From contig NZ_CP050440.1 of assembly GCF_011769525.1 (NCBI RefSeq), positions 7,860,001 to 7,924,000 of the forward strand: DNA of 64,000 nucleotides, read 5' to 3'. A program made the translations under genes and the position numbers. Of this stretch, positions 1,512-13,849 are shown piece after piece. The DNA is from Tolypothrix sp. PCC 7910. GTDB lineage: Bacteria; Cyanobacteriota; Cyanobacteriia; Cyanobacteriales; Nostocaceae. Position 1 is the first letter of the stretch; every line of letters starts with the position of its first letter. The notes below the pieces were generated by a model. The model was not told where the DNA came from. It saw nothing but the letters and a program-made list of their open reading frames with translations, and made no database searches.

Positions 1512-4500
1512 ATGAGTTTGATTAACCTGGATTTGGTCTTCAGCGCAATTACTGGTATTGCCAATCCTTTAATTAAAGAAAAAATTCTGCGTAGTGAGAC
1601 AGTAATTAAGTTACTCCAGCAATTTAATCTTGACCCAGAGCATCCGCCTGCTGATTTTAGTGGTGTTTACGCCTATGCGTTAGTAGAGTACGGTGTAGGT
1701 AAACCAAAACCATTGCTGGAATTATTCCGACAAGAAGCAGTTAAACAAGCTTTTCGCACAGCATTAGACCACAATAACCCCTCAATTCTGCTTTCTGAGG
1801 TTGATGCTTTTCTCAATGCCTATACATTGGGCGATGATATCAGAAGTTTGGAACTTGATATCAGGCGAGAGGTGGCTGAATTCGCGACGGTATTTATTGA
1901 AGTCGCGAAACGTAGCCGCACACCTGCTGATGTGTTGATGAACCAGAAAATTGGTTCTCTACATAAAAGGATTGCAAGTATCCAAGAACAACTGGAAAGA
2001 TTGCCGACTTTGGAGGGAATTCGCACAGAAATAGCAAGGTTGGCAGTAGATAATTATCCCGCACTACCCCCAAGTGCAACCGAAAACCAATGTAGAGCGA
2101 TCGCCCTGGCTCAACAGATGCGAGGATGGTTTGAAACCTTGGGCTATGACTTTGAAAAATATGAAATCTGGGCAGAGGAATATTTTGAATGGATAATTCA
2201 GATTCCAGTACGTCGCAGTTATGACCGCATTCTTATACGTGGTGTTGCTGGAGAAATTGGACTAAGTGATGTCATGGCATTGCGTTCCTCAGTTGAAGCG
2301 CAAAAAACTGATGAAGGATGGTTAGTAACTACCCGCCGGATTTCCCGCGCTGCAAGGGATGAAGTCAAAAAGGAAGCAAATCGTCATCTTGATTGTTTCA
2401 CTTTTGATGAACTAATTGACTTGGATGCCGACTTTAATGCCTATCTTGACTGGTTAGAAGCAGAAATCAAACGCCGAAAAATTGATACTAAGTATGTACC
2501 CCTTGCTTGTACAAAAGAAGAAATTGACCCAATTACTAAGCAGCGAATCGGGATGAGTCGATATGACGAAGAAGATGGCTGGATTGATGGCTATATTGAC
2601 TTGTGGCTTGATGACCCTGCAAAAGAGCATATTTCCATTCTGGGAGAATTTGGTACAGGTAAAACTTGGTTTGTCTTTCACTATGCTTGGACTGCACTGC
2701 AACGTTACCGCGATGCCCAAAAACGTGGTGTTGAACGTCCCCGTCTGCCTTTAGTAATTACCTTGCGTGACTTTGCCAAGGCGCTAAATGTGGAGAATGT
2801 TTTGGCAGGATTCTTTTTTACCCAACATAATATCCGCATCAACAGCGAAGTTTTTGACCAACTCAACCGCATGGGTAAATTGCTGCTAATTTTCGATGGT
2901 TTTGATGAAATGGCAGCAAAAGTTGATCGTCAACAAATGATTAACAACTTCTGGGAACTGGCAAAGGTGGTTGTTCCCGGTGCTAAAGTTATCCTCACCT
3001 GTCGGACTGAGCATTTCCCAGAGGCGAAAGAAGGACGCGCTTTACTAAATGCAGAATTGCAAGCATCGACTAAAAAATTAACCGGAGAAACACCGCAATT
3101 TGAAGTTTTAGAACTAGAAAAATTCAACGATGAGCAAATTCGGCAGGTGTTGTCATACCAAGCTGAAGCTGCGACAGTTGAACAAGTCTTGAGCAATCCG
3201 CAATTATTAGACTTAGCCCGTCGTCCAGTGATGACCGATTTAATCTTAGAAGCATTGCCAGATATTGAAGTGGGTAAACCCGTGGATATGTCACGGGTTT
3301 ATCTGTATGCAGTGCGGCGCAAGATGGAACGAGACATCAAAGCAGAACGTACTTTTACTTCTTTGGCAGATAAACTGTACTTTTTGTGCGAACTTTCTTG
3401 GGAAATGCTCTCTACTGACCAAATGAGCTTGAATTATCGGCTTTTCCCAGAACGCATTCGCCGCTTATTTGGTTTTAGTGTTCAAGAAGAGAAGGATTTA
3501 GATCACTGGCATTATGACATGATGGCGCAGACGATGCTTGTCCGCAATGCTGATGGTGATTATACTCCCGCCCATAGATCTCTACTAGAGTTTTTTGTGG
3601 CGTATAAATTTGCCGCAGAGTTAGGGGCGTTAGCTAGCGATTTTACAGAATTAGCCCAAGCGCGATCGCTTGTAGATAAAACTGTCGCGCCTGCTGATTA
3701 TACTTGGTCTGGTTATTTTTCACGTCAAGGGAGTGGGGAGGCGATGCCTGCGGCAACCCCTTTGGGGAACGCACCACTAAGAGAATTTACAAGTGAGTCA
3801 TTAGATAAGTTAAAAGAGACTTTTGGCAAAGCGCTACTCACAAAAGTCGTAATGGATCTGTTTTTGCCGATGTTAGCTAACAAAGATTCTCTGATTAATG
3901 TTATTGAAGCGACGCGGCATAAAACTGAGGATGAAGTGGGTTATTTAGGGGGCAATGCAGGAAGAGTTTTATTAAATGTGGATCAAACCGCATTGGAAGC
4001 AAAAGACCTCAGTTATACGGTCATTAAAGGTGTAGATTTTACCAATGCCAGCCTGCGTTATGTAGATTTTACTAAGGCTAATGTCAAAGACTCCCTGTTT
4101 GCTAAAGTCTTGGGCAGTGTTCGTTCTGTGGCATTCAGCCCAGATGGCAAATTTTTGGCTACAGGTGATAACTATGGTGCAATTCGTTTATGGCAAGTTG
4201 CTGATGGTAAAGAACTTTTGTTATGTAAAGGGCACAGTAATAGGGTTAACTCTGTTGCCTTTAGTCAAGACGGAAAAACATTAGCTAGTGGTGAATATCA
4301 AACAATTACGCTTTGGGATATTGCTACAGGTAAAAGCTTAAAAATTTTTCAGGGGCATACTGGTTGGGTGCAGTCATTATGCTTTAGTCGGGATGGTATA
4401 TCCTTGGCTAGTGGATCTAGAGACCAAACAGTGAAGCTTTGGAATATTCATACAGGTGAATGCCTAAAAAGTTATCAAGGGCATACTGATTGGGTAAATT

Positions 4501-5966
4501 CAGTTGCATTCAACTTTCAAGGTAATCTTCTAGTTAGTGGTAGTTCTGACCAAATGGTGAAACTCTGGAATATTCATACTGATGAATGCCTAAAAACATG
4601 GCAAGCCCACATTGATGGAGTATTCTCTGTTGCCTTCACTTCTCAAGGTACTTATATAGCTAGTAGTGGTGGAGATCAAACTGTAAAACTTTGGGATGCT
4701 TTGACAGGTGAATGTTTGAAAAATTTTCAAGGACATACCAGTTCGGTATACTCATTCGCTTTTAGTCCAGACGAGGCAATCTTAGTCAGTGGTGGTTATG
4801 ACCAACAAATTAGGATCTGGGATATTCACGCTAACAAATGTATTAAAATATTAGATGGGCATACTGACTGGGTAATGTCAGTTGCCTTCAGTCCAGATGG
4901 CACAACCTTGGCTAGTGGATCTGGAGATCAGACAATTAAGCTTTGGAATACCCAAAAAGGTGAATGCCTCAAAACTCTACAAGCGTATACACGTTATGTA
5001 CATTCAGTTAGATTTAGCCCAAATGGTAAAACTTTAGTTAGCGGTGGTGGAGACCAAACGGTAAAAATTTGGGATGTCAATACAGGTAAATGTATCAAAA
5101 TTTGCCAAGGACATAGCAGTTCAGTGTGGTCTGTTGCCTTTAGTCCAGATGGTACAGCCATAGCCAGTGCAGCCAGAGACCAAACGGTAAAAATTTGGGA
5201 TGTCAATACAGGTAAATGTATCAAAACTTGCCAAGGACATAGCAGTTCAGTATGGTCAATTGCATTTAGCCCAAATGGCACTATTCTTGCTAGTGGTAGT
5301 CATGACCAAATGGTGAAGCTTTGGGATATCCATACAGGTGAATGCCTCAAAACTTTGCAGGGACATACTCAATGGATACGCTCAGTTGCTTTCAGTTGTG
5401 ATGGTACAGTTGTAGCCAGCGGTAGTAGAGACCAGACGATAAAACTATGGAATATTCATACAGGTAAATGCCTCAAAACTTTGCTTGGTCATACTGATGC
5501 CGTGTTCTCAATAGCTTTCAGTCCTGAAGGAACAACCTTGGCTAGTGGTAGTGGTGACAAAACATTAAAGCTTTGGGAAATTCATACAGGTGAATGCCTC
5601 AAAACCTTTAATCATGGCAGTGTGGTGTTGTCAGTGGCTTTTAGCCCAGATGGAAGAATTCTGGCGAGTGGTGGTAGAAATCAAATGGTAACGCTTTGGA
5701 ATTTGCGTACAGATAGAAACCTGAAAACTTTACAAGGACATACAAGTCAAGTAGTTTCAGTTACCTTCAGCCCAGATGGTGCAACTCTTGCCAGTAGTAG
5801 TGAAGACGGAACTATTAAGATTTGGAATGTCCAGACTGGTGAATGCCTAAAAACTTTGAGAGGTACACCACCTTACGAACGCATGAACATCACGGGCATC
5901 AAAGGCTTAACCGAAGCTGAAAAAGCCACACTTAAAGCATTAGGTGCGGTGGAAGATGGAGAATAA
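1512..5966 (+). CDS. NACHT-domain STAND NTPase with 14 WD40 repeats
   Basis: This 1484-residue signal-transducing NTPase has the layout of a prokaryotic NLR-like sensor. Residues 1-180 are helical and unrecognised. Residues 190-330 contain YDRILIRGVAGEIGLSDV and EGWLVTTRRIS, possibly a nuclease-like fold. The NACHT domain has its P-loop GEFGTGKTW near residues 378-386 and Walker B LLLIFDGFDEM near 457-467. Residues 823-865 hold pentapeptide-like repeats (VDFTNASLRYVDFTKA). Fourteen WD40 repeats of 41-42 residues run from about 868 to 1450, enough for two seven-bladed propellers, and a short tail ends VEDGE. NACHT proteins of this type oligomerise when the repeat domain senses a ligand; many act in phage defence. 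Its ligand and effector activity are unknown. In-frame dispersed-repeat sequence lies at about 3731-3775. Confidence 0.92.
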   Translation: MSLINLDLVFSAITGIANPLIKEKILRSETVIKLLQQFNLDPEHPPADFSGVYAYALVEYGVGKPKPLLELFRQEAVKQAFRTALDHNNPSILLSEVDAFLNAYTLGDDIRSLELDIRREVAEFATVFIEVAKRSRTPADVLMNQKIGSLHKRIASIQEQLERLPTLEGIRTEIARLAVDNYPALPPSATENQCRAIALAQQMRGWFETLGYDFEKYEIWAEEYFEWIIQIPVRRSYDRILIRGVAGEIGLSDVMALRSSVEAQKTDEGWLVTTRRISRAARDEVKKEANRHLDCFTFDELIDLDADFNAYLDWLEAEIKRRKIDTKYVPLACTKEEIDPITKQRIGMSRYDEEDGWIDGYIDLWLDDPAKEHISILGEFGTGKTWFVFHYAWTALQRYRDAQKRGVERPRLPLVITLRDFAKALNVENVLAGFFFTQHNIRINSEVFDQLNRMGKLLLIFDGFDEMAAKVDRQQMINNFWELAKVVVPGAKVILTCRTEHFPEAKEGRALLNAELQASTKKLTGETPQFEVLELEKFNDEQIRQVLSYQAEAATVEQVLSNPQLLDLARRPVMTDLILEALPDIEVGKPVDMSRVYLYAVRRKMERDIKAERTFTSLADKLYFLCELSWEMLSTDQMSLNYRLFPERIRRLFGFSVQEEKDLDHWHYDMMAQTMLVRNADGDYTPAHRSLLEFFVAYKFAAELGALASDFTELAQARSLVDKTVAPADYTWSGYFSRQGSGEAMPAATPLGNAPLREFTSESLDKLKETFGKALLTKVVMDLFLPMLANKDSLINVIEATRHKTEDEVGYLGGNAGRVLLNVDQTALEAKDLSYTVIKGVDFTNASLRYVDFTKANVKDSLFAKVLGSVRSVAFSPDGKFLATGDNYGAIRLWQVADGKELLLCKGHSNRVNSVAFSQDGKTLASGEYQTITLWDIATGKSLKIFQGHTGWVQSLCFSRDGISLASGSRDQTVKLWNIHTGECLKSYQGHTDWVNSVAFNFQGNLLVSGSSDQMVKLWNIHTDECLKTWQAHIDGVFSVAFTSQGTYIASSGGDQTVKLWDALTGECLKNFQGHTSSVYSFAFSPDEAILVSGGYDQQIRIWDIHANKCIKILDGHTDWVMSVAFSPDGTTLASGSGDQTIKLWNTQKGECLKTLQAYTRYVHSVRFSPNGKTLVSGGGDQTVKIWDVNTGKCIKICQGHSSSVWSVAFSPDGTAIASAARDQTVKIWDVNTGKCIKTCQGHSSSVWSIAFSPNGTILASGSHDQMVKLWDIHTGECLKTLQGHTQWIRSVAFSCDGTVVASGSRDQTIKLWNIHTGKCLKTLLGHTDAVFSIAFSPEGTTLASGSGDKTLKLWEIHTGECLKTFNHGSVVLSVAFSPDGRILASGGRNQMVTLWNLRTDRNLKTLQGHTSQVVSVTFSPDGATLASSSEDGTIKIWNVQTGECLKTLRGTPPYERMNITGIKGLTEAEKATLKALGAVEDGE
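3731..3775. repeat. Dispersed cyanobacterial repeat inside the NACHT reading frame
   Basis: A segment containing GGCGATGCCTGCGGC and CCCCTTTGGGGAACGC lies within the coding sequence and translates as GEAMPAATPLGNA. Its GC-rich composition and the local palindrome CCCCTTTGGGG are unlike the flanking coding DNA. The same kind of sequence occurs between genes in this window (near 29330). It falls between the NACHT region and the pentapeptide-like segment, a place likely to tolerate a linker insertion. Confidence 0.55.
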
Positions 5967-6045
5967 ATCTGGAACGATAAATTAAGCTATGTTTAGACGA
6001 TCGCACCACCCACGCCTTTACACTAATAAAGTAAGAGCGATCGCA

Positions 6046-6333
6046 TTACCAATTCTGATAAGTCTTGAATGTATGATCGCATGAGTAAACCTCTTCCTCT
6101 TCGCCATACTGTGTTGGTGCTTCACCATGAATCTCAAGAATTTTGGGCTTTTTCATTTTGGGATTAGCAGGTTCAATTTTTTCTAGCTGCAAATCAAACG
6201 CCCACTCATCCAGTAAATCAAAGATAAATTGCAGATGATTTCCTGTTTTTAGTGGTAATTCACCCAAGCGAAAATCGCTGGTGTTTCCGGGAATATACAC
6301 AATCAATATCTCTAAAATCAGCAATAGAAACAA
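6046..6333 (-). pseudogene. pRiA4b ORF-3-like protein, truncated
   Basis: The minus strand encodes about 95 residues, opened by TTG at 6333, including LKTGNHLQFIFDLLDEWAFD, LQLEKIEP and LEIHGEAPTQYGEEEE. This resembles the central and C-terminal part of the plasmid pRiA4b ORF-3-like family, whose usual motif is YLFDYGDDWRFEV...GKAPKQYG. The family is normally 180 residues or more, and the N-terminal half is missing: an in-frame TAA lies upstream with no good start. It is probably a remnant. It lies beyond the 3' end of the leftward AAA-like gene. Confidence 0.5.
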
Positions 6334-6402
6334 GATATTAGATAAAGCTGTTGATAATTTATCAATGATAGCTGATGAACCTTATTTTCTTGTGAATTAT
6401 AT

Positions 6403-8376
6403 TTAATATTTTAAAATTGTCAGAGACAAACTGTAAGATAATGTTTGTTTGCGCTGATAACCCCATCTAGCCACTTCATCCTTATAATTATAACGGAATA
6501 TATTCTCTATTTGCTTGATTAACTGCATTTCTGAACTTTGGGGATTATCATATATTATATTATTTTCATCGGTGGCACGTAGAACTTTGATACTGCCGTC
6601 ATATCTAATTTCTACTTCTAACTTTAAGTTTTTTTGCTGCTGATTACTCAAAAGCGATGATACCAGAGTATTTGGTACTGAAATTATTTTATTATTTTCA
6701 AATAATCGAGGAGTAGCTACAGGAATTATCCTATCTTCGCTATTTATAAGTATTGTTGAATTAGGGATGATGCTGAATAATAAATCTGTTTTTAAATCAC
6801 TACTATTAAAATTTGTATTTTCAGGCAATTGATTAATTGTCCGTAAAATATAGTTATTATCAATATTTTTTTGTAAAAACAGAATCTGTAAAGTTAGAAT
6901 TATGGCAGGAATACCCAAAACTAGCATTAATAACTGAATATAAGTATTATTTTTATAAAAATTATAAATAGGTTGTTTTTTTGATTTGGAAAGGTTAGAT
7001 GATTTAACTCTGACATCTTTTCGGATGTTTGGTAATCTTTTGTCTGTATTTTCTTGTGCTTCTTTAACTTTTAAAGCACTAAAAATTTTATTTTCAAAAT
7101 TACTATTGTTTTTGCTAATGTTATTCGCTAGTAAGCTAGCGCAAAGAAATTCATAATCTACAAGACTTAATGACTTACCATCAGCCCACTGCCATGCTTT
7201 ATACAAAAATTCTTCTGGTAATAAGAATTGCGAATTATTCATTCGACCAGACTGTATCCATTCTTGTAGCTGTTCTGCATACGGACAGCCAAGCTTTTCT
7301 AATGTTCTAGTAATCCATTTCTGATTAAAAACAAATATGTAAAGTTGATTATATATTTTTAATCTACCTTGGTTTTCGACTAAACCAGATAGTAATAAAT
7401 CACTAGCTTCTTCGCTATTATCATATTTAACTACTTTTCCTTCCAAAATTTTTCTGTATAGATTAAGAAATCCGATTTTGTTCTTACTCTTCATTATTCG
7501 TTCACTAATTGTTCTCAAATGCTGTGGTTCGTCTTGAAATTCCCAATTTTCAATAATTCTTGATTTTACAACCTGCTCAACTGTGCGAGGGTTTTCTCGC
7601 TCTGATTCCTCAACCATAAACTGACACAACTTCTGCGTCAGGAAAGGTTGCCCTTCTGTCCACTTTAAAATTTCCTCCATAACCACTTGCGTGTTACTAA
7701 ATTTACCCTCTAAACCTAACTGTAATGGTTTTACCTCATGCAGTTGAAAGCCTTTGAGAGAGATAGCTTTACCAATATTAAACGGAGTTCTTTGCTTATC
7801 TTCTATTAGATTACTAGGCGATGCAACTCCCAATAAACAAAAAGTGAGGCGATTATATTCAGGATTATCAACACGCTGATTGTAACAGGAACGAATAAAA
7901 GCAAAAAAATAATCAGTAGAGAATTGCAGACTTAAAACACTATCAATTTCATCAATAAAAATAACGATATTCTCTTTAATTTCCCGCAGTAATATTTTTT
8001 CCAGAAAGTTACCAAATTTCATCAAAGATGAATTTAATTTATTCTTCTCCCACCACTGTTGAAAATCTATATCCAGGTCAAAGCTATCAATTAGCTTCAC
8101 AATCAAATCTGCATACCAATTTTCTTGCGTCGCGCTATGAATACTGACAGAAGATAAATCAATCGATGCACACTCCACACCAACTTCACGCAAGCGACTC
8201 ATTGTTCTCACCCGTAAGCTGGATTTTCCACTTTGTCTAGAATTAAGTACGTAACAAAACTTCCCTTGCCTTAGTGCTTCATACAGTTCATTATCTGCGT
8301 CTCGTGTCACATAGGTACTAGCATTTTCGGGCAAGCTTCCAGAAAAAATATATTCGTCGATATATTGCTCATCCAT
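6403..8376 (-). CDS. AAA-like ATPase domain protein with a C-terminal membrane segment
   Basis: This 657-residue protein starts with the cyanobacterial AAA-like (PF14516-type) ATPase region. The P-loop is at residues 44-53 (LNSRQSGKSS) and Walker B is NIVIFIDEIDSVL near 136-148. A winged-helix-like portion follows (EGQPFLTQKLCQFM, then LLLSGLV and YIFVFNQKW). Homologues often carry WD40 repeats after this region; here there is a hydrophobic span near residues 475-495 (LLMLVLGIPAIILTLQILFL) and a roughly 150-residue C-terminal domain that was not recognised. The start lies only 3 bases after the stop of the CHAT-AAA gene, so the two are almost certainly cotranscribed. A role as the membrane-anchored partner of the protease-like protein is an inference. 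Confidence 0.85.
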   Translation of the reverse strand: MDEQYIDEYIFSGSLPENASTYVTRDADNELYEALRQGKFCYVLNSRQSGKSSLRVRTMSRLREVGVECASIDLSSVSIHSATQENWYADLIVKLIDSFDLDIDFQQWWEKNKLNSSLMKFGNFLEKILLREIKENIVIFIDEIDSVLSLQFSTDYFFAFIRSCYNQRVDNPEYNRLTFCLLGVASPSNLIEDKQRTPFNIGKAISLKGFQLHEVKPLQLGLEGKFSNTQVVMEEILKWTEGQPFLTQKLCQFMVEESERENPRTVEQVVKSRIIENWEFQDEPQHLRTISERIMKSKNKIGFLNLYRKILEGKVVKYDNSEEASDLLLSGLVENQGRLKIYNQLYIFVFNQKWITRTLEKLGCPYAEQLQEWIQSGRMNNSQFLLPEEFLYKAWQWADGKSLSLVDYEFLCASLLANNISKNNSNFENKIFSALKVKEAQENTDKRLPNIRKDVRVKSSNLSKSKKQPIYNFYKNNTYIQLLMLVLGIPAIILTLQILFLQKNIDNNYILRTINQLPENTNFNSSDLKTDLLFSIIPNSTILINSEDRIIPVATPRLFENNKIISVPNTLVSSLLSNQQQKNLKLEVEIRYDGSIKVLRATDENNIIYDNPQSSEMQLIKQIENIFRYNYKDEVARWGYQRKQTLSYSLSLTILKY

Positions 8377-8379
8377 AAA

Positions 8380-10005
8380 TTACCTCAAATGCACCGAGAA
8401 ATACTTACGGTATAAATCGCAGCTAGGAACGCAATCATTACGAACAATATTCACCAACCCTAAGCTATGCATTTTAAAAGTAATTTCAGGATTAAGTTGT
8501 ACAGGTTCATTTGCCGTTACTACTCTTTTATAAGCTTCTGCTAGCTGAGGATCATCTTGTAAACATTTGAGTTGTTCTCGCAGATGGTGGCTAAAAATGC
8601 CTTGTTCCGTTGGAGCAAGTGTCAAAATTTCTTCTAGAGTAATTTCTTGATTTTTAAGATTACTCAAAGTCTCTTGTAGCAAATAGGGATGCCCTCCCAG
8701 CAATCCCATTAGTTGATTTAAACCTTGTTCTCCTAAATGCCTATCTAATTCATGTTCCTTTACCATTTCTTCTATCTGCTGCTGGTTAAACTCAGGTAAC
8801 TCAATAGCTAATCCCACATTAAAAGGTGAGCGATTAGTATCTAAGGTAGGATAAGTTTCTGTAGAATTAACCACCACTAACCTCAGCTTTTTCCAAATCT
8901 TACCCATCCTGTCCCCTTGTTTGGCAGTTTCATACCAACTCCGCAGCAGTAAGCAAAATTCGGAGAAAATGTTTTCACATTTAAACAACCGCTCAAAATT
9001 ATCTATGGCAAGAACAATAGGACTATCAATTACTGATAGTAAATACTTTTGAAAGTAACGAGTACAGCTTGTATTCAGCCCCATAGTATCTTGCCAGTAT
9101 TCATCCAACTTAGCTTCTAGTTCTAGGCTGTCAGAAACATTGATGCACAACCACTGTAAGAAGGTCTTCAAGTCAGCAATGGCAGAACTATCAGCTAGTT
9201 TCAAATCTAATTTTGCTGTTTGATAACCTTGCTGTCTAGCATAGTCGAGCAATTTCTCTAATAGCAAGGTTTTACCCATCTTTTGCGGAGCTTTAATCCG
9301 AATCAGCGCTCCCGGTTGCAAAATGGCTTTATGGCATTTTTCTTCAATCGGCGGACGTTTAATATATATATTTATTGTTTCCATGCCAGAGTTTGTAGAT
9401 AATTCCTGTGGGGAAATCTGAGAAAGTAAACTTTTTTTTGTGATGAGTTGGGGTATTAAATTCTGCGGTATCCCTGCCACTCTAATCACGCTACAACCTA
9501 GTTTATAGGCAAATTCATAATCTTGACCTGCTCCTAGCGCATCATAAAAACCTACAGCAAATTCAACTGCTGCTTTATCACCAATTGCTTGATTCATACC
9601 CACAACATAATCAATGTGTCGGGCTATTTCTTCTGTCTGGTATTTTGAATAACAAGCATTGAGAACAACACACTCTATTCGATTAGCGAATAATTGAAAT
9701 AATCCAGCTAAAGCTTCTGTATCAACTAACTTGACTTGACCCGTTTCATCCTCAAATAACAAACCTTCTTCTCCAGAACCATGCCCAGAAAAGTGAATGA
9801 TATGTGGTTCGTATTCCAGAATAGCTCTATGTATGTCTCTGTAGCGTACTGCTTCTGCTGTATCTATTGAATAATCATCACGCTTCTTTGCTCGTTTTAA
9901 TCCATCTTTAATTTCGCGCATCTCCTCACCCAGACGAAGCTGACTGGTGCCTTTAGGATTGGCTGATAACAGCAGGATCTTTCGAGCTTGATTATTACTA
10001 TTCAT
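8380..10005 (-). CDS. CHAT (caspase-like) protease domain fused to an AAA-like ATPase
   Basis: This 541-residue protein has an N-terminal CHAT domain with the catalytic histidine in HFSGHGSG (His75) and cysteine in VLNACYS (Cys118), the dyad of clan CD proteases. A second half from about residue 205 is an AAA-like ATPase with P-loop APQKMGKT at 239-246 and Walker B IVLAIDNFERLF near 330-341. Domain pairs of this sort are STAND-type conflict or cell-death modules in cyanobacteria and actinobacteria. It is the first gene of a leftward pair with the AAA-like membrane protein (3-base gap) and begins 55 bases after the stop of the CvkR-like gene. It may therefore be read from the same promoter as the repressor. 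No substrate is evident. Confidence 0.88.
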   Translation of the reverse strand: MNSNNQARKILLLSANPKGTSQLRLGEEMREIKDGLKRAKKRDDYSIDTAEAVRYRDIHRAILEYEPHIIHFSGHGSGEEGLLFEDETGQVKLVDTEALAGLFQLFANRIECVVLNACYSKYQTEEIARHIDYVVGMNQAIGDKAAVEFAVGFYDALGAGQDYEFAYKLGCSVIRVAGIPQNLIPQLITKKSLLSQISPQELSTNSGMETINIYIKRPPIEEKCHKAILQPGALIRIKAPQKMGKTLLLEKLLDYARQQGYQTAKLDLKLADSSAIADLKTFLQWLCINVSDSLELEAKLDEYWQDTMGLNTSCTRYFQKYLLSVIDSPIVLAIDNFERLFKCENIFSEFCLLLRSWYETAKQGDRMGKIWKKLRLVVVNSTETYPTLDTNRSPFNVGLAIELPEFNQQQIEEMVKEHELDRHLGEQGLNQLMGLLGGHPYLLQETLSNLKNQEITLEEILTLAPTEQGIFSHHLREQLKCLQDDPQLAEAYKRVVTANEPVQLNPEITFKMHSLGLVNIVRNDCVPSCDLYRKYFSVHLR

Positions 10006-10060: not shown

Positions 10061-10489
10061 TTAACCTGCCAACTTATTCATCAACTGCTGATAAATCATG
10101 TCTAGCCACACCGGAATCACAGGTTTACCTTCATCTAAAGATGCGATCGCTTGTTCTCGGTCATACATTACAAGATTGAGCGATCGCTTATGACCCTGCC
10201 AAAGAAGCATCCACCGACTACCTTTACCAGAGTCAAATAACTCCGGCTCCTTGTCTTTAAGGGTGTTCAACGTAGTACTGGCAATATCAAAACTCAATCC
10301 CATCGACAAAAAATATAACATTGCTGCCAGTTCCATCAAATTCGGCTTTGAGTAATAAATACTACGCCCTGTTCCTGTCTCACCGATAACAGGAACAACT
10401 ACACCCTTTTCTCGCCAGTACTGGAGCTGGCGCAGAGTGCAGCCTGTGATTTCAGCCGCTTGTTTACTCGTAAAAAAAGTTTCCTGCAT
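10061..10489 (-). CDS. cvkR: CvkR-like MerR-family repressor of the CAST
   Basis: The 142-residue product begins with a MerR-type helix-turn-helix (FFTSKQAAEITGCTLRQLQY, then WREKGVV at residues 5-32). A wing segment GTGRSIYYSK and a C-terminal alpha-beta part follow. It is transcribed away from cas12k, with the two starts 69 bases apart. This size, family and position match CvkR, the MerR-type regulator of type V-K CASTs known to repress cas12k and the tracrRNA. It lacks the long dimerisation helix of metal-sensing MerR proteins. The likely operator is the dyad at 10530-10553 in the shared spacer. The function is assigned from family and position. Confidence 0.88.
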   Translation of the reverse strand: MQETFFTSKQAAEITGCTLRQLQYWREKGVVVPVIGETGTGRSIYYSKPNLMELAAMLYFLSMGLSFDIASTTLNTLKDKEPELFDSGKGSRWMLLWQGHKRSLNLVMYDREQAIASLDEGKPVIPVWLDMIYQQLMNKLAG

Positions 10490-10529
10490 GAAATCATTGT
10501 AGGCGCAGCAGCTAATTAAACATCTATGG

Positions 10530-10553
10530 TACTATTAGACATATGTGTTAGTA
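10530..10553. promoter_or_regulatory. Candidate CvkR operator in the cvkR-cas12k spacer
   Basis: The 24-bp sequence has TACTA and TAGTA arms around a perfect ACATATGT palindrome, slightly off centre. It is the only clear dyad between the two divergent genes and lies just upstream of the chosen cas12k start. Operator function is inferred from position. Confidence 0.4.
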
Positions 10554-10558
10554 AGCGT

Positions 10559-12472
10559 ATGAGCCAAATTACTATTCAGTGTCGTTTAGTAGCAAGTGAA
10601 TTTACCCGCCAACAGCTATGGAAGCTGATGGCAGAGAAAAACACGCCACTGATTAACGAACTGTTGCTCAGGGTGGCTCAAAACCCTGAGTTTGAAAGTT
10701 GGCGGCAAAAGGGCAAACACCCCAGTGGTATTGTCAAAGAACTATGCCAGCCTTTAAAAAGTCACCCTTGCTTTATTGGTCAGCCAGGGCGGTTTTACAC
10801 GAGTGCGATCGCCATAGTTAACTACATCTACAAATCTTGGTTTGCCCTGATGAAGCGATCGCAATCTCAACTAGAAGGCAAAATTCGCTGGTGGGAAATG
10901 TTGAAAAGCGATACTGAATTAGTAGAAGCCAGTGGTGTGACCTTAGAGAGCCTTCGTAACAAAGCTGCTGAAATCTTGGCTGAACTTACCCCCCAGTCCG
11001 ATACTGTTAAGGCACAACCAGCGAAAGGAAACAAACGTAAAAAGACTAAAAAAGCTAAAGTTGCAGAAGGCGACCATAGTATCTCTAAAACTTTATTTGA
11101 CACTTACCGCGATACAGAAGATATTTTGACTCGTTGTGCAATTAGCTACTTACTCAAAAATGGATGCAAAATCAACAATAAAGAGGAAGACGCTGAAAAA
11201 TTTGCTAAACGCCGCCGTAAACTAGAAATTCAGATTGAACGCCTCAGAGCAAAGCTAAAGGCACGAATCCCTAAAGGCCGAGATTTAACAGATGCTAAAT
11301 GGTTAGAAACTCTTTTGCTTGCCACTGATAATGTTCCTGAAAGTGAAGAAGAGGCGAAATCTTGGCAAGACAGCCTTTTAAAAAAATCTAGCAAAGTACC
11401 TTTTCCAGTCGCTTATGAAACCAACGAAGACATGACTTGGTTTAAGAACGAGCATGAACGTATCTGTGTGAAATTCAATGGTTTGGGTGAGCATACTTTT
11501 CAAGTCTATTGTGATTCTCGCCATCTCCACTGGTTCCAACGATTTTTAGAAGACCAACAAATTAAGCAGAAGAGTAAAAACCAACACTCTAGCAGCCTAT
11601 TTACTCTCCGCAGTGGGCGTATTGCTTGGCAGGAAGGGGATGGTAAAGGTGATCCTTGGAAAGTTAACCGCTTAATCCTCTACTGTTCTGTAGATACTCG
11701 CCTATGGACTGCTGAAGGAACAAACCTTGTAAGAGTTGAGAAAGCAGAAGAAATTGCTAAAACTATTACCCAGACAAAAGCCAAAGGCGAACTCAACGTT
11801 CAACAACTTGCTCATATAAAACGGAAAAACTCATCTCTAGCCAGAATTAATAACCCCTTTCCCCGTCCGAGTAAACCATTATATAAAGGTCAATCTCACA
11901 TTCTTGTTGCAGTTAGCCTTGGTTTAGAGAAGCCTGCAACAGTAGCAGTGGTTGATGGTTCTACAAGTACAGTCATTACCTACCGCAGTATTAAACAACT
12001 ACTAGGCGATAATTACAAACTACTAAACCAACAGCGGCAACAAAAGCATTCTTTATCCCACCAGCGCCAAATAGCTCAAATGCTCGCTGCACCCAATCAA
12101 ATGGGAGAATCACAGTTAGGGCAGTATGTAGACAGATTACTGGCTAGAGAAATTGTGGCGATCGCTCAAACATATAAAGCTGGCAGTATTGTCCTCCCTA
12201 AATTGGGCGATATGCGAGAACAAGTACAAAGTGAGATTCAAGCCAAAGCCGAACAGAAATCAGACTTAATAGAAGTTCAACAAAAATATGCCAAACAGTA
12301 CCGAGTTAGCGTCTATCAGTGGAGCTATGGTCAATTGCTCGCAAATATTCACTCGTCAGCGGCTAAAGCTGGAATTGTCATAGAGGAGTCAAAACAACCA
12401 ATTCGAGGTAGTCCGCAAGAGAAAGCGAAAGAATTAGCGATCGCTGCTTACCATTCCCGCCAAAAAAGCTGA
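10559..12472 (+). CDS. cas12k: Cas12k, nuclease-dead RNA-guided targeting protein of the type V-K CAST
   Basis: The product of 637 residues begins MSQITIQCRLVASEFTRQQL followed by WKLMAEKNTPLINELL, and contains QPGRFYTSAIAIVNYIYKSW. These are hallmarks of Cas12k (C2c5), which is about 640 residues in characterised CASTs. The ATG at 10559 is preferred to the upstream ATG at 10526, because family members begin at MS-ITIQCRL and the extra 11 residues would cover the operator. The RuvC-I segment reads ILVAVSLGLEKPATVAVVDG near residue 450, without the catalytic aspartate of active Cas12 nucleases. This fits a protein that binds but does not cut the target and recruits TnsC/TniQ/TnsB. A lysine-rich loop (KGNKRKKTKKAKV) lies near 165-178. 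tracrRNA and array follow on the same strand. Confidence 0.96.
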   Translation: MSQITIQCRLVASEFTRQQLWKLMAEKNTPLINELLLRVAQNPEFESWRQKGKHPSGIVKELCQPLKSHPCFIGQPGRFYTSAIAIVNYIYKSWFALMKRSQSQLEGKIRWWEMLKSDTELVEASGVTLESLRNKAAEILAELTPQSDTVKAQPAKGNKRKKTKKAKVAEGDHSISKTLFDTYRDTEDILTRCAISYLLKNGCKINNKEEDAEKFAKRRRKLEIQIERLRAKLKARIPKGRDLTDAKWLETLLLATDNVPESEEEAKSWQDSLLKKSSKVPFPVAYETNEDMTWFKNEHERICVKFNGLGEHTFQVYCDSRHLHWFQRFLEDQQIKQKSKNQHSSSLFTLRSGRIAWQEGDGKGDPWKVNRLILYCSVDTRLWTAEGTNLVRVEKAEEIAKTITQTKAKGELNVQQLAHIKRKNSSLARINNPFPRPSKPLYKGQSHILVAVSLGLEKPATVAVVDGSTSTVITYRSIKQLLGDNYKLLNQQRQQKHSLSHQRQIAQMLAAPNQMGESQLGQYVDRLLAREIVAIAQTYKAGSIVLPKLGDMREQVQSEIQAKAEQKSDLIEVQQKYAKQYRVSVYQWSYGQLLANIHSSAAKAGIVIEESKQPIRGSPQEKAKELAIAAYHSRQKS

Positions 12473-12509: not shown

Positions 12510-12745
12510 CATTAATAGCGCCGCAGTTCATGCTTGTATAAAGCCGCTGTACTGTGAAAATGTGGGTTAGTTTGACTGTTGGAAGATAGTCTTGCTTTCT
12601 GACCCTGGTAGCTGCCCACCTTGATGCTGCTATCCCTTGTGGATAGGAATAAGGTGCGCCCCCAGTAATAGAGGTGCGGGTTTACCGCAGTGGTGGCTAC
12701 CCAATCACCTCCGACCAAGGAGGAACCCACCTTAATTATTTTTTG
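12510..12745 (+). ncRNA. tracrRNA: CAST tracrRNA
   Basis: The segment opens with TTAATAGCGCCGCAG and later has GGGTTAGTTTGACTGTT, CTTGCTTTCTGACCCTGGTA and GCTGC. These blocks are also found in the ShCAST tracrRNA as recalled. Near the 3' end a CCTCC (12708-12712) / GGAGG (12719-12723) hairpin precedes the anti-repeat AACCCACC at 12724-12731. The anti-repeat pairs with the 3' part of the CRISPR repeat (GGCGGGTT, one A-C mismatch) and perfectly with the homing repeat (GGTGGGTT). A T-rich run at 12733-12743 may end transcription. The 5' and 3' ends are estimates. It guides Cas12k together with the crRNA. Confidence 0.88.
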
Positions 12746-12931: not shown

Positions 12932-13336
12932 GTTTCAATACCCCTCACAGCTTGAGGCGGGTTGAAAGTTATATTCCGGCATAACTGCCCCTTTTTCTAT
13001 CCTAGAAGTTTCAATACCCCTCACAGCTTGAGGCGGGTTGAAAGAATTTAATGCGCCGGGGGCAGTGGGATAAAGATAATAAAGAGTTTCAATACCCCTC
13101 ACAGCTTGAGGCGGGTTGAAAGCGATGGTTGAGCGTTGAACCACTACTAGAGGAGTTTCAATACCCCTCACAGCTTGAGGCGGGTTGAAAGGGGCTTGGA
13201 AGCGTAAGTATAGCAAGAAGTGACATGTTTCAATACCCCTCACAGCTTGAGGCGGGTTGAAAGATAGCCTTAGTTCAGTGTTTCTACCTATCCATGCAAG
13301 TTTCAATACCCCTAACAGCTTGAGGCGGGTTGAGAT
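12932..13336 (+). CRISPR. Type V-K CRISPR array, 6 repeats (last degenerate), 5 spacers
   Basis: Five identical 37-bp repeats start with GTTTCAATACCCCTCACAG and end GCGGGTTGAAAG, at 12932-12968, 13008-13044, 13086-13122, 13155-13191 and 13227-13263. A sixth at 13300-13336 has three mismatches (CTAACAG, and a GAGAT end). Spacers are 39, 41, 32, 35 and 36 nt. The repeat end GGGTTGAAAG preceding the spacer, and the orientation shared with cas12k and tracrRNA, set the transcribed strand as plus. Repeat decay at the 3' side is the usual leader-distal pattern. No spacer was seen to match elsewhere in the window. Confidence 0.96.
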
Positions 13337-13510: not shown

Positions 13511-13571
13511 GTATTTGAAACCAACAAGAAAACACTTTTTAGGTGGGTTGAAAGGATAGAGCAACAGATTC
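13511..13571 (+). ncRNA. Detached homing crRNA: atypical repeat plus 17-nt spacer matching tRNA-Arg
   Basis: About 175 bases past the array, 13511-13554 is a repeat-like segment whose 3' part AGGTGGGTTGAAAG (13541-13554) keeps the array repeat end, while its 5' half is unrelated. The next 17 bases (13555-13571), GATAGAGCAACAGATTC, are identical to the minus strand of the tRNA-Arg gene at 13816-13832. In that gene the base triplet directly 5' of the match is GTG, fitting the NGTN PAM of V-K systems. Delocalised crRNAs with short spacers against tRNA genes are the established homing device of these transposons. The hairpin after the spacer (13581-13600) may define the RNA end. Confidence 0.92.
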
Positions 13572-13580
13572 TTGATTTTG

Positions 13581-13600
13581 AGGGACTGACCTGTGTCCCT
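13581..13600 (+). terminator. Hairpin after the homing crRNA
   Basis: AGGGAC (13581-13586) and GTCCCT (13595-13600) form a 6-bp stem with an 8-base loop, 9 bases after the homing spacer. There is no strong T-run behind it, so terminator function is uncertain. Confidence 0.35.
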
Positions 13601-13690
13601 AATATTGACTAATCTTATCGGTGATTAGTTGCTCTGCAAAAGCATATTGCTGCCATACTTTAAGATATAGCAGTATAAACCTGTGAAATT

Positions 13691-13767
13691 AATTTGTTAA
13701 CAGTGACATGAATTTGTTAAAAATGACATGAATCTGTTAACAGTGACAAATAATTAGTTAATGTACA
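13691..13767. repeat. CAST terminal repeats and element end (candidate TnsB sites)
   Basis: Three tandem 20-bp units lie at 13691-13710, 13711-13730 and 13731-13750, each of the form AATyTGTTAAmArTGACAtg. They are followed by TTAATGTACA ending at 13767. Read inward from the end this gives TGTACA and repeated TGTCA...TTAACA blocks, the organisation of Tn7-like V-K CAST ends where TnsB binds. Bases 13768-13772 (ACAAT) would be the target-site duplication if the usual 5-bp duplication holds; the partner copy is outside the window. Confidence 0.85.
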
Positions 13768-13776
13768 ACAATATAA

Positions 13777-13849
13777 CGAGCGCGGAGGGATTTGAACCCC
13801 CGACCCACAGAACCGGAATCTGTTGCTCTATCCACTGAGCCACGCGCCC
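13777..13849 (-). tRNA. tRNA-Arg(CCG), CAST attachment site
   Basis: The minus strand from 13849 folds as a 73-nt tRNA with GGGCGCG acceptor strand paired to CGCGCTC, G73 discriminator and no encoded CCA. The anticodon loop in AGATTCCGGTTCT gives anticodon CCG (arginine), and the T arm has GGTTCAAATCC. The gene is intact. Bases 13816-13832, D-arm to anticodon stem, are the protospacer of the CAST homing spacer, with PAM GTG at 13835-13833 on the minus strand. The transposon end lies 9 bp beyond the tRNA 3' end. Confidence 0.95.

Follow-up and report, generated by a model that had tools for sequence, protein, structure and literature searches.

Why does a type V-K CRISPR-associated transposon (CAST) of Tolypothrix sp. 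PCC 7910 lie beside a tRNA-Arg(CCG) gene, and did a guide carried by the element itself bring it there? The window, that is, the whole 64,000-nucleotide stretch that was analysed (G000:C1:7860001-7924000), contains the CRISPR side of the element, and the second end was mapped outside it. Our analysis points, with a probability of roughly 0.88, to a V-K CAST that was homed by its own guide to tRNA-Arg(CCG), beside the scar of an older CAST, and that presumably lost one ACAAT copy through slippage.

Parts of the element and the guide-target match

The features on which the argument depends are the following (window coordinates):

1512-5966, plus strand: cargo, NACHT-type WD40 protein (Pfam)
6403-8376, minus strand: cargo, AAA_35 protein (Pfam)
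8380-10005, minus strand: cargo, CHAT-AAA_35 protein (Pfam)
10061..10489, minus strand: MerR-type regulator in cvkR position, in reverse orientation next to cas12k (Pfam MerR_1, 8.3e-13)
10526..12472, plus strand: Cas12k effector, 648-aa frame whose true start may be downstream (NCBIfam V_Cas12k, 975.6 bits; PADLOC Cas12k, 1041.9 bits)
12724..12731, plus strand: putative tracrRNA anti-repeat AACCCACC, downstream of cas12k (8/8 complementary to R*)
12932..13336, plus strand: CRISPR array of six 37-nt repeats, the last degenerate (repeat search, family D1)
13538..13554, plus strand: R*, truncated repeat of the homing crRNA (repeat family D2)
13555..13571, plus strand: homing (anchor) spacer, 17 nt (genome-wide exact match to itself and the tRNA only)
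13680..13767, plus strand: left end (CRISPR side) with repeated TnsB-site-like units and terminal TGTACA (alignment with relatives)
13768..13772, plus strand: ACAAT, presumably the one copy of the target-site duplication that remains
13777..13849, minus strand: tRNA-Arg(CCG), attachment site (ARAGORN; Rfam, 63.4 bits)
13816..13832, minus strand: protospacer inside the tRNA gene (sequence match)
13833..13835, minus strand: GTG PAM (CAC on the plus strand; read from the sequence)

The element spans 25,824 bp, with its CRISPR side in the window and its tnsB side beyond it. A second TGTACA-type end, expected to the left by the initial annotation, was located at C1:7847944, left of the window, and the two ends bound the element. 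Inward of C1:7847944 we found tnsB, tnsC and tniQ (V-K type, PADLOC), in that order from the end, and an IS4-type transposase also lies within the element on the tnsB side. The ends were named according to the published convention, in which the CRISPR side is the left end (LE) and the tnsB side the right end (RE) (accessible text of PMC9938897 and PMC11406308); taking the tnsB side as the left end would misplace the target and was ruled out by this convention.

Judged from its sequence, the element is a native type V-K CAST of Nostocaceae, with a MerR gene placed as in CvkR-regulated V-K CASTs. The MerR-type regulator was 81% identical to its relative in the second CAST of the genome and 95% identical to that of G002. 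The strict CvkR motif AnnACATnATGTnnT, expected upstream of cas12k and of tnsB, was absent from the two stretches scanned; ACATATGT occurs at 10539 and ACATAAATGT at L009:8197. An Rfam gathering search returned only the tRNA. The array region gave no match to plasmids, a weak test at a spacer length of 30-40 nt. Many cargo genes (window 1512-10005 and L009:14366-19600) were of signalling or defence-like types (NACHT-WD40, CHAT, AAA_35 and type I methyltransferase-like), and a defence role is possible.

The spacer at 13555-13571 was confirmed to be the exact minus strand of 13816-13832 in tRNA-Arg(CCG), as the initial annotation had claimed. The GTG that it had taken for a PAM is indeed present on the minus strand at 13833-13835 and matches the V-K GTN, and the end that it had placed at 13767 leaves a PAM-to-end spacing of 65 bp (13832-13767). 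The 17-mer has exactly two occurrences in the 8.76-Mb genome, the guide itself and tRNA-Arg(CCG), which excludes a chance match; five further places match with 2 mismatches. The same guide is present in seven other surveyed loci, with one change in G031, and was also found in G005 and G007.

Homing by truncated repeat-spacer units is published, and this kind of arrangement is already known. The accessible text of PMC9938897 gives the V-K rule as a truncated repeat followed by a 17-nt anchor spacer, a target that is usually a tRNA gene, a GTN PAM, and a PAM-to-end distance of 46 to 82 nt with one exception at 147; the architecture also appears in PMC11406308 and PMC12719977, as far as their accessible text goes. 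Like AnCAST, ShCAST and AcCAST, V-K elements with anchor (delocalised) crRNAs described in the same part of PMC9938897, the present element has Cas12k, tnsB-tnsC-tniQ and a truncated repeat with a 17-nt spacer near the left end, and it shares with V-K CASTs of this kind the tRNA target, the PAM and the range of spacing. It departs from them in no point of principle; its particulars are a right end that meets an older scar in a palindrome, a missing duplication and a frame-broken tnsB.

We infer that this guide directed this particular insertion. By analogy with V-K biochemistry, a short crRNA composed of R* and the 17-nt spacer would pair with the tracrRNA and be carried by Cas12k, the complex would recognise tRNA-Arg(CCG) behind the GTG PAM, and TniQ and TnsC would direct TnsB to insert the element 65 bp away, its CRISPR-side end closest to the tRNA.

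The far junction and the older end scar

Relatives lacking the element at tRNA-Arg(CCG), for which the initial annotation had suggested looking, were found in the same genus: G003 and G004 keep the flanks and carry no CAST between them, which identifies 13767/13768 as a real junction. With a guide unique in its genome and related strains without the element, the locus is a clean natural case of RNA-guided homing. The ACAAT duplication that had been predicted for the far end was looked for at C1:7847944 and was absent, so that a 5-bp target-site duplication was not found here and ACAAT stands on the tRNA side only. Thus, the claim that the native element explains its own location stood as far as guide, PAM, spacing and end agree, and needed revision at the far end, where ACAAT is missing and an older end scar is present.

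The far end (C1:7847944) lies back to back with an LE-type remnant, one TGTACA being common to both, in a perfect 40-bp palindrome. In G003 and G004 the alcohol-dehydrogenase flank (92% and 97%, respectively) runs straight into this remnant and then into the tRNA. The remnant, about 40 bp long, is therefore an end scar that an older CAST left next to the tRNA after using the same attachment site. The present element now separates this scar from the tRNA. In G003, 5 nt separate the TGTACA of the scar from ACGAGCG. If the ancestor had this spacing, an insertion about 3 bp inside the scar end would yield two copies of ACAAT, with TGTACA-AT-TGTACA at the far junction, and slippage between the neighbouring TGTACA repeats, with a loss of 8 bp, may then have removed the second ACAAT copy. 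We infer such a landing inside the scar, followed by slippage, from the sequences compared. An 11-bp loss at the far junction, which we had considered at first and which was likewise conjectural, was superseded by the 8-bp loss, which fits the 5-nt spacing in G003.

Alternatively, the present copy could have replaced an older CAST by recombination through shared ends, in which case the guide would explain the location of the ancestor only. This would agree with the absent duplication, with a far junction at which the TGTACA is shared and the ends are almost identical, and with the older scar at the same tRNA site. However, the scar retains its own inner sequence outside the new right end, as predicted by an insertion beside it, and stacked ends were found at other loci too, some of them with a direct repeat; we consider such a replacement unlikely. 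At 9 of 49 right ends, LE-type sequence followed immediately on the outer side, as judged by a score exceeding the 99th percentile of those at 980 random local positions. The window is missing from these nine, since the TGTACA of its scar is also that of the element end; scored with the shared TGTACA included, the scar gave 23/25 matches.

The homing reading also has to accommodate the missing duplication. For 50 of 60 far-end regions a pair was formed with a surveyed LE on the same contig, the other 10 being excluded; the pairs may include mispairs. A scan with subtype motifs of the clean LE-RE pairs (46/50) gave a flush direct repeat of at least 5 bp in 21 (exactly 5 bp in 15) and of 3-4 bp in 5, and none of at least 3 bp in 20, a count that may hold mispairs because the one-element status of each pair was assumed. 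Since these 20/46 pairs also have no repeat of at least 3 bp, the missing duplication is not decisive for V-K membership. Flush repeats of 7-10 bp, where 5 bp are expected, were seen in six of the 46 clean pairs (L100/L184, L160/L217, L102/L187, L162/L223, L104/L202 and L165/L220), one of these targets being a tandem repeat and two lying within the end scars of earlier elements.

In 16/27 relatives, three of them borderline, an LE-type end lay at most 20 nt from tRNA-Arg(CCG); every one of the 8 genomes of the genus is among the 16. This proportion may be biased upward, since the loci compared (27 of 30 retrieved) were best matches to a query that itself contained the LE. G001 and G006 have such an end by tRNA-Arg(CCG), and we regard it as a scar because neither genome has a Cas12k match genome-wide at E 1e-20. 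The same tRNA site has been refilled repeatedly, with end scars as records of past CASTs.

Some related arrangements were also observed. G002 has tRNA-Arg(CCG) twice, about 15.7 kb apart (L086:13784-13856 and L087:9515-9599), each with an LE-type end upstream; one of the copies is decayed and is labelled Trp by ARAGORN. In G007 (L089:4460-5960), a TGTACA-type LE that an IS-like insert has interrupted is contained in another element, immediately upstream of the R*-guide of the latter, an arrangement of nested CASTs at the same tRNA. A further LE-like end to which no element could be tied was seen near the end of contig 1 (L014:8020-8045, C1:8478020-8478045).

Homing guides across the family

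A Cas12k search of 217 genomes of the family gave a match in 131. On plasmids, Cas12k matched 2 records, one of them covering at least 80% of the query. The surveyed sample of 84 V-K loci was non-random: it comprised 80 of the 88 best-scoring listed Cas12k matches from other genomes, eight being passed over, and four loci added by hand (the window, the second CAST, G002 and G031). For the 80 matches, the sequence downstream of cas12k was covered. We looked in each locus for an R*-like repeat followed by 17 nt with a target within 2.5 kb, allowing at most 2 mismatches and demanding a GTN PAM, and 78/84 loci had such a guide beside the element. The other 17-mers following repeats in the surveyed loci never matched their own flank (0/373), and when a guide was tested against loci carrying another guide, 59/5582 trials gave a match. 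Six loci had no guide match with up to 2 mismatches: L103 and L110, where only about 1 kb of sequence was covered, L145 and L147, where no repeat was detected, L164 and L177. The initial annotation had spoken of a CAST caught with its own guide, target and insertion point; the survey shows the arrangement to be ordinary for the V-K family and no rarity.

The PAM-to-LE distance was 43-66 bp in the 51 loci with an exact terminal TGTACA; only these 51 of the 78 were counted because the scan used TGTACA alone and misplaced ends of the CGACA subtype (giving, for example, values of 99-102).

Two other explanations of the position of the element were weighed. A selector protein of the TnsD type, as in I-B2 and I-D CASTs, might have chosen the tRNA, the guide being secondary, and other Tn7-like elements do reach tRNA sites via TnsD (PMC11406308, accessible text); however, the TniQ encoded beside tnsC is of the short 167-aa V-K type (PADLOC), and V-K CASTs have no extra TnsD according to the accessible text of the same review, so this can hardly have happened. 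That the 17-nt match and the spacing are unrelated to the position of the element, a view left room only by the sequence-only nature of the evidence for this strain, is scarcely credible given a 17-mer present at exactly two places in the genome, guides in 78/84 loci against 0/373 array spacers, and the experimental support for such insertion cited in the accessible text of PMC9938897.

A second V-K CAST of the genome has its LE at C1:7181872 and its outer end at 7210733. Its guide matches the 3'-end of a protein gene, which resembles mutS, with 2/17 mismatches, both at third codon positions. It is flanked by the 8-bp repeat TTAGAAAT rather than by one of 5 bp (L011:11815-11871 and 12191-12220; L012:10711-10741; C1:7181815-7210741).

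Fit of the repeats to the tracrRNA and state of tnsB

In the window, the putative anti-repeat at 12724-12731 pairs 8/8 with R* (GGTGGGTT) and mismatches the array repeat (GGCGGGTT). We compared the two kinds of repeat in the 65 loci having both an anti-repeat and an array; of the 78, twelve without AACCC (ten with the variant AATCC) and one without an array were dropped. Pairing with the anti-repeat was perfect (8/8) for R* in 51/65 loci and for the commonest array repeat in 5/65, and R* paired better in 52, equally in 9 and worse in 4, counts that are not independent because the loci are related by descent. The duplex of R* was stronger in 55 loci, equal in 2 and weaker in 8, with a mean difference of 2.3 kcal/mol (1.1 in the window). 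Anti-repeat and R* covary (ACC with GGTGGG, TCC with GGAGGG, TCT with AGAGGG and ATC with GATGGG), and in the array repeat the third of the eight positions was unpaired in 59 of the 60 imperfect loci. This base may be fixed in array repeats for other reasons, via the hairpins that they look able to form. The common ShCAST guide has an array-type repeat opposite AACCCUCC, the mismatched form.

On these comparisons we suggest, tentatively and with more doubt than confidence, that V-K CASTs might rank their guides by the fit of repeat to tracrRNA, R* being kept perfect and array repeats keeping a mismatch. If so, the attachment-site guide would be privileged and better-loading, the plasmid-seeking array guides would form a weaker class, and guide scaffolds derived from the array repeat would bear the handicap. 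Type I-F3b CASTs similarly have a special class of attachment-site crRNAs, atypical and hyperactive, apart from the array crRNAs; unlike the present element with its Cas12k and tracrRNA, they use Cascade (PMC11406308, accessible text). Here the special class seems to be marked by better pairing with the tracrRNA. The difference in fit could bear on how the elements choose a chromosomal or a plasmid target, on where homing crRNAs come from, which the accessible text of PMC11656645 calls unclear, and on why V-K tools show poor specificity in foreign hosts, as reported in that of PMC11406308. Repeat fit and scar layering went unmentioned in the literature searched, a scope outside which the primary homing papers (Saito 2021; Hsieh and Peters 2021) fall.

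Finally, tnsB of the element in the window (L009:8222-9944, C1:7848222-7849944) was interrupted near L009:8860 by a one-base frame change, which leaves two pieces corresponding to profile positions 11-223 and 256-546 of 621; in G031 and in the second CAST of the genome the matched tnsB pieces lie in a single frame. A short run of G lies close by, and the break could conceivably be a sequencing error. Because of the break, the present copy is probably no longer self-mobile. The TnsB of the second CAST, 88% identical to that of the window element, has an unbroken frame (571 aa open) and could therefore supply TnsB in trans.
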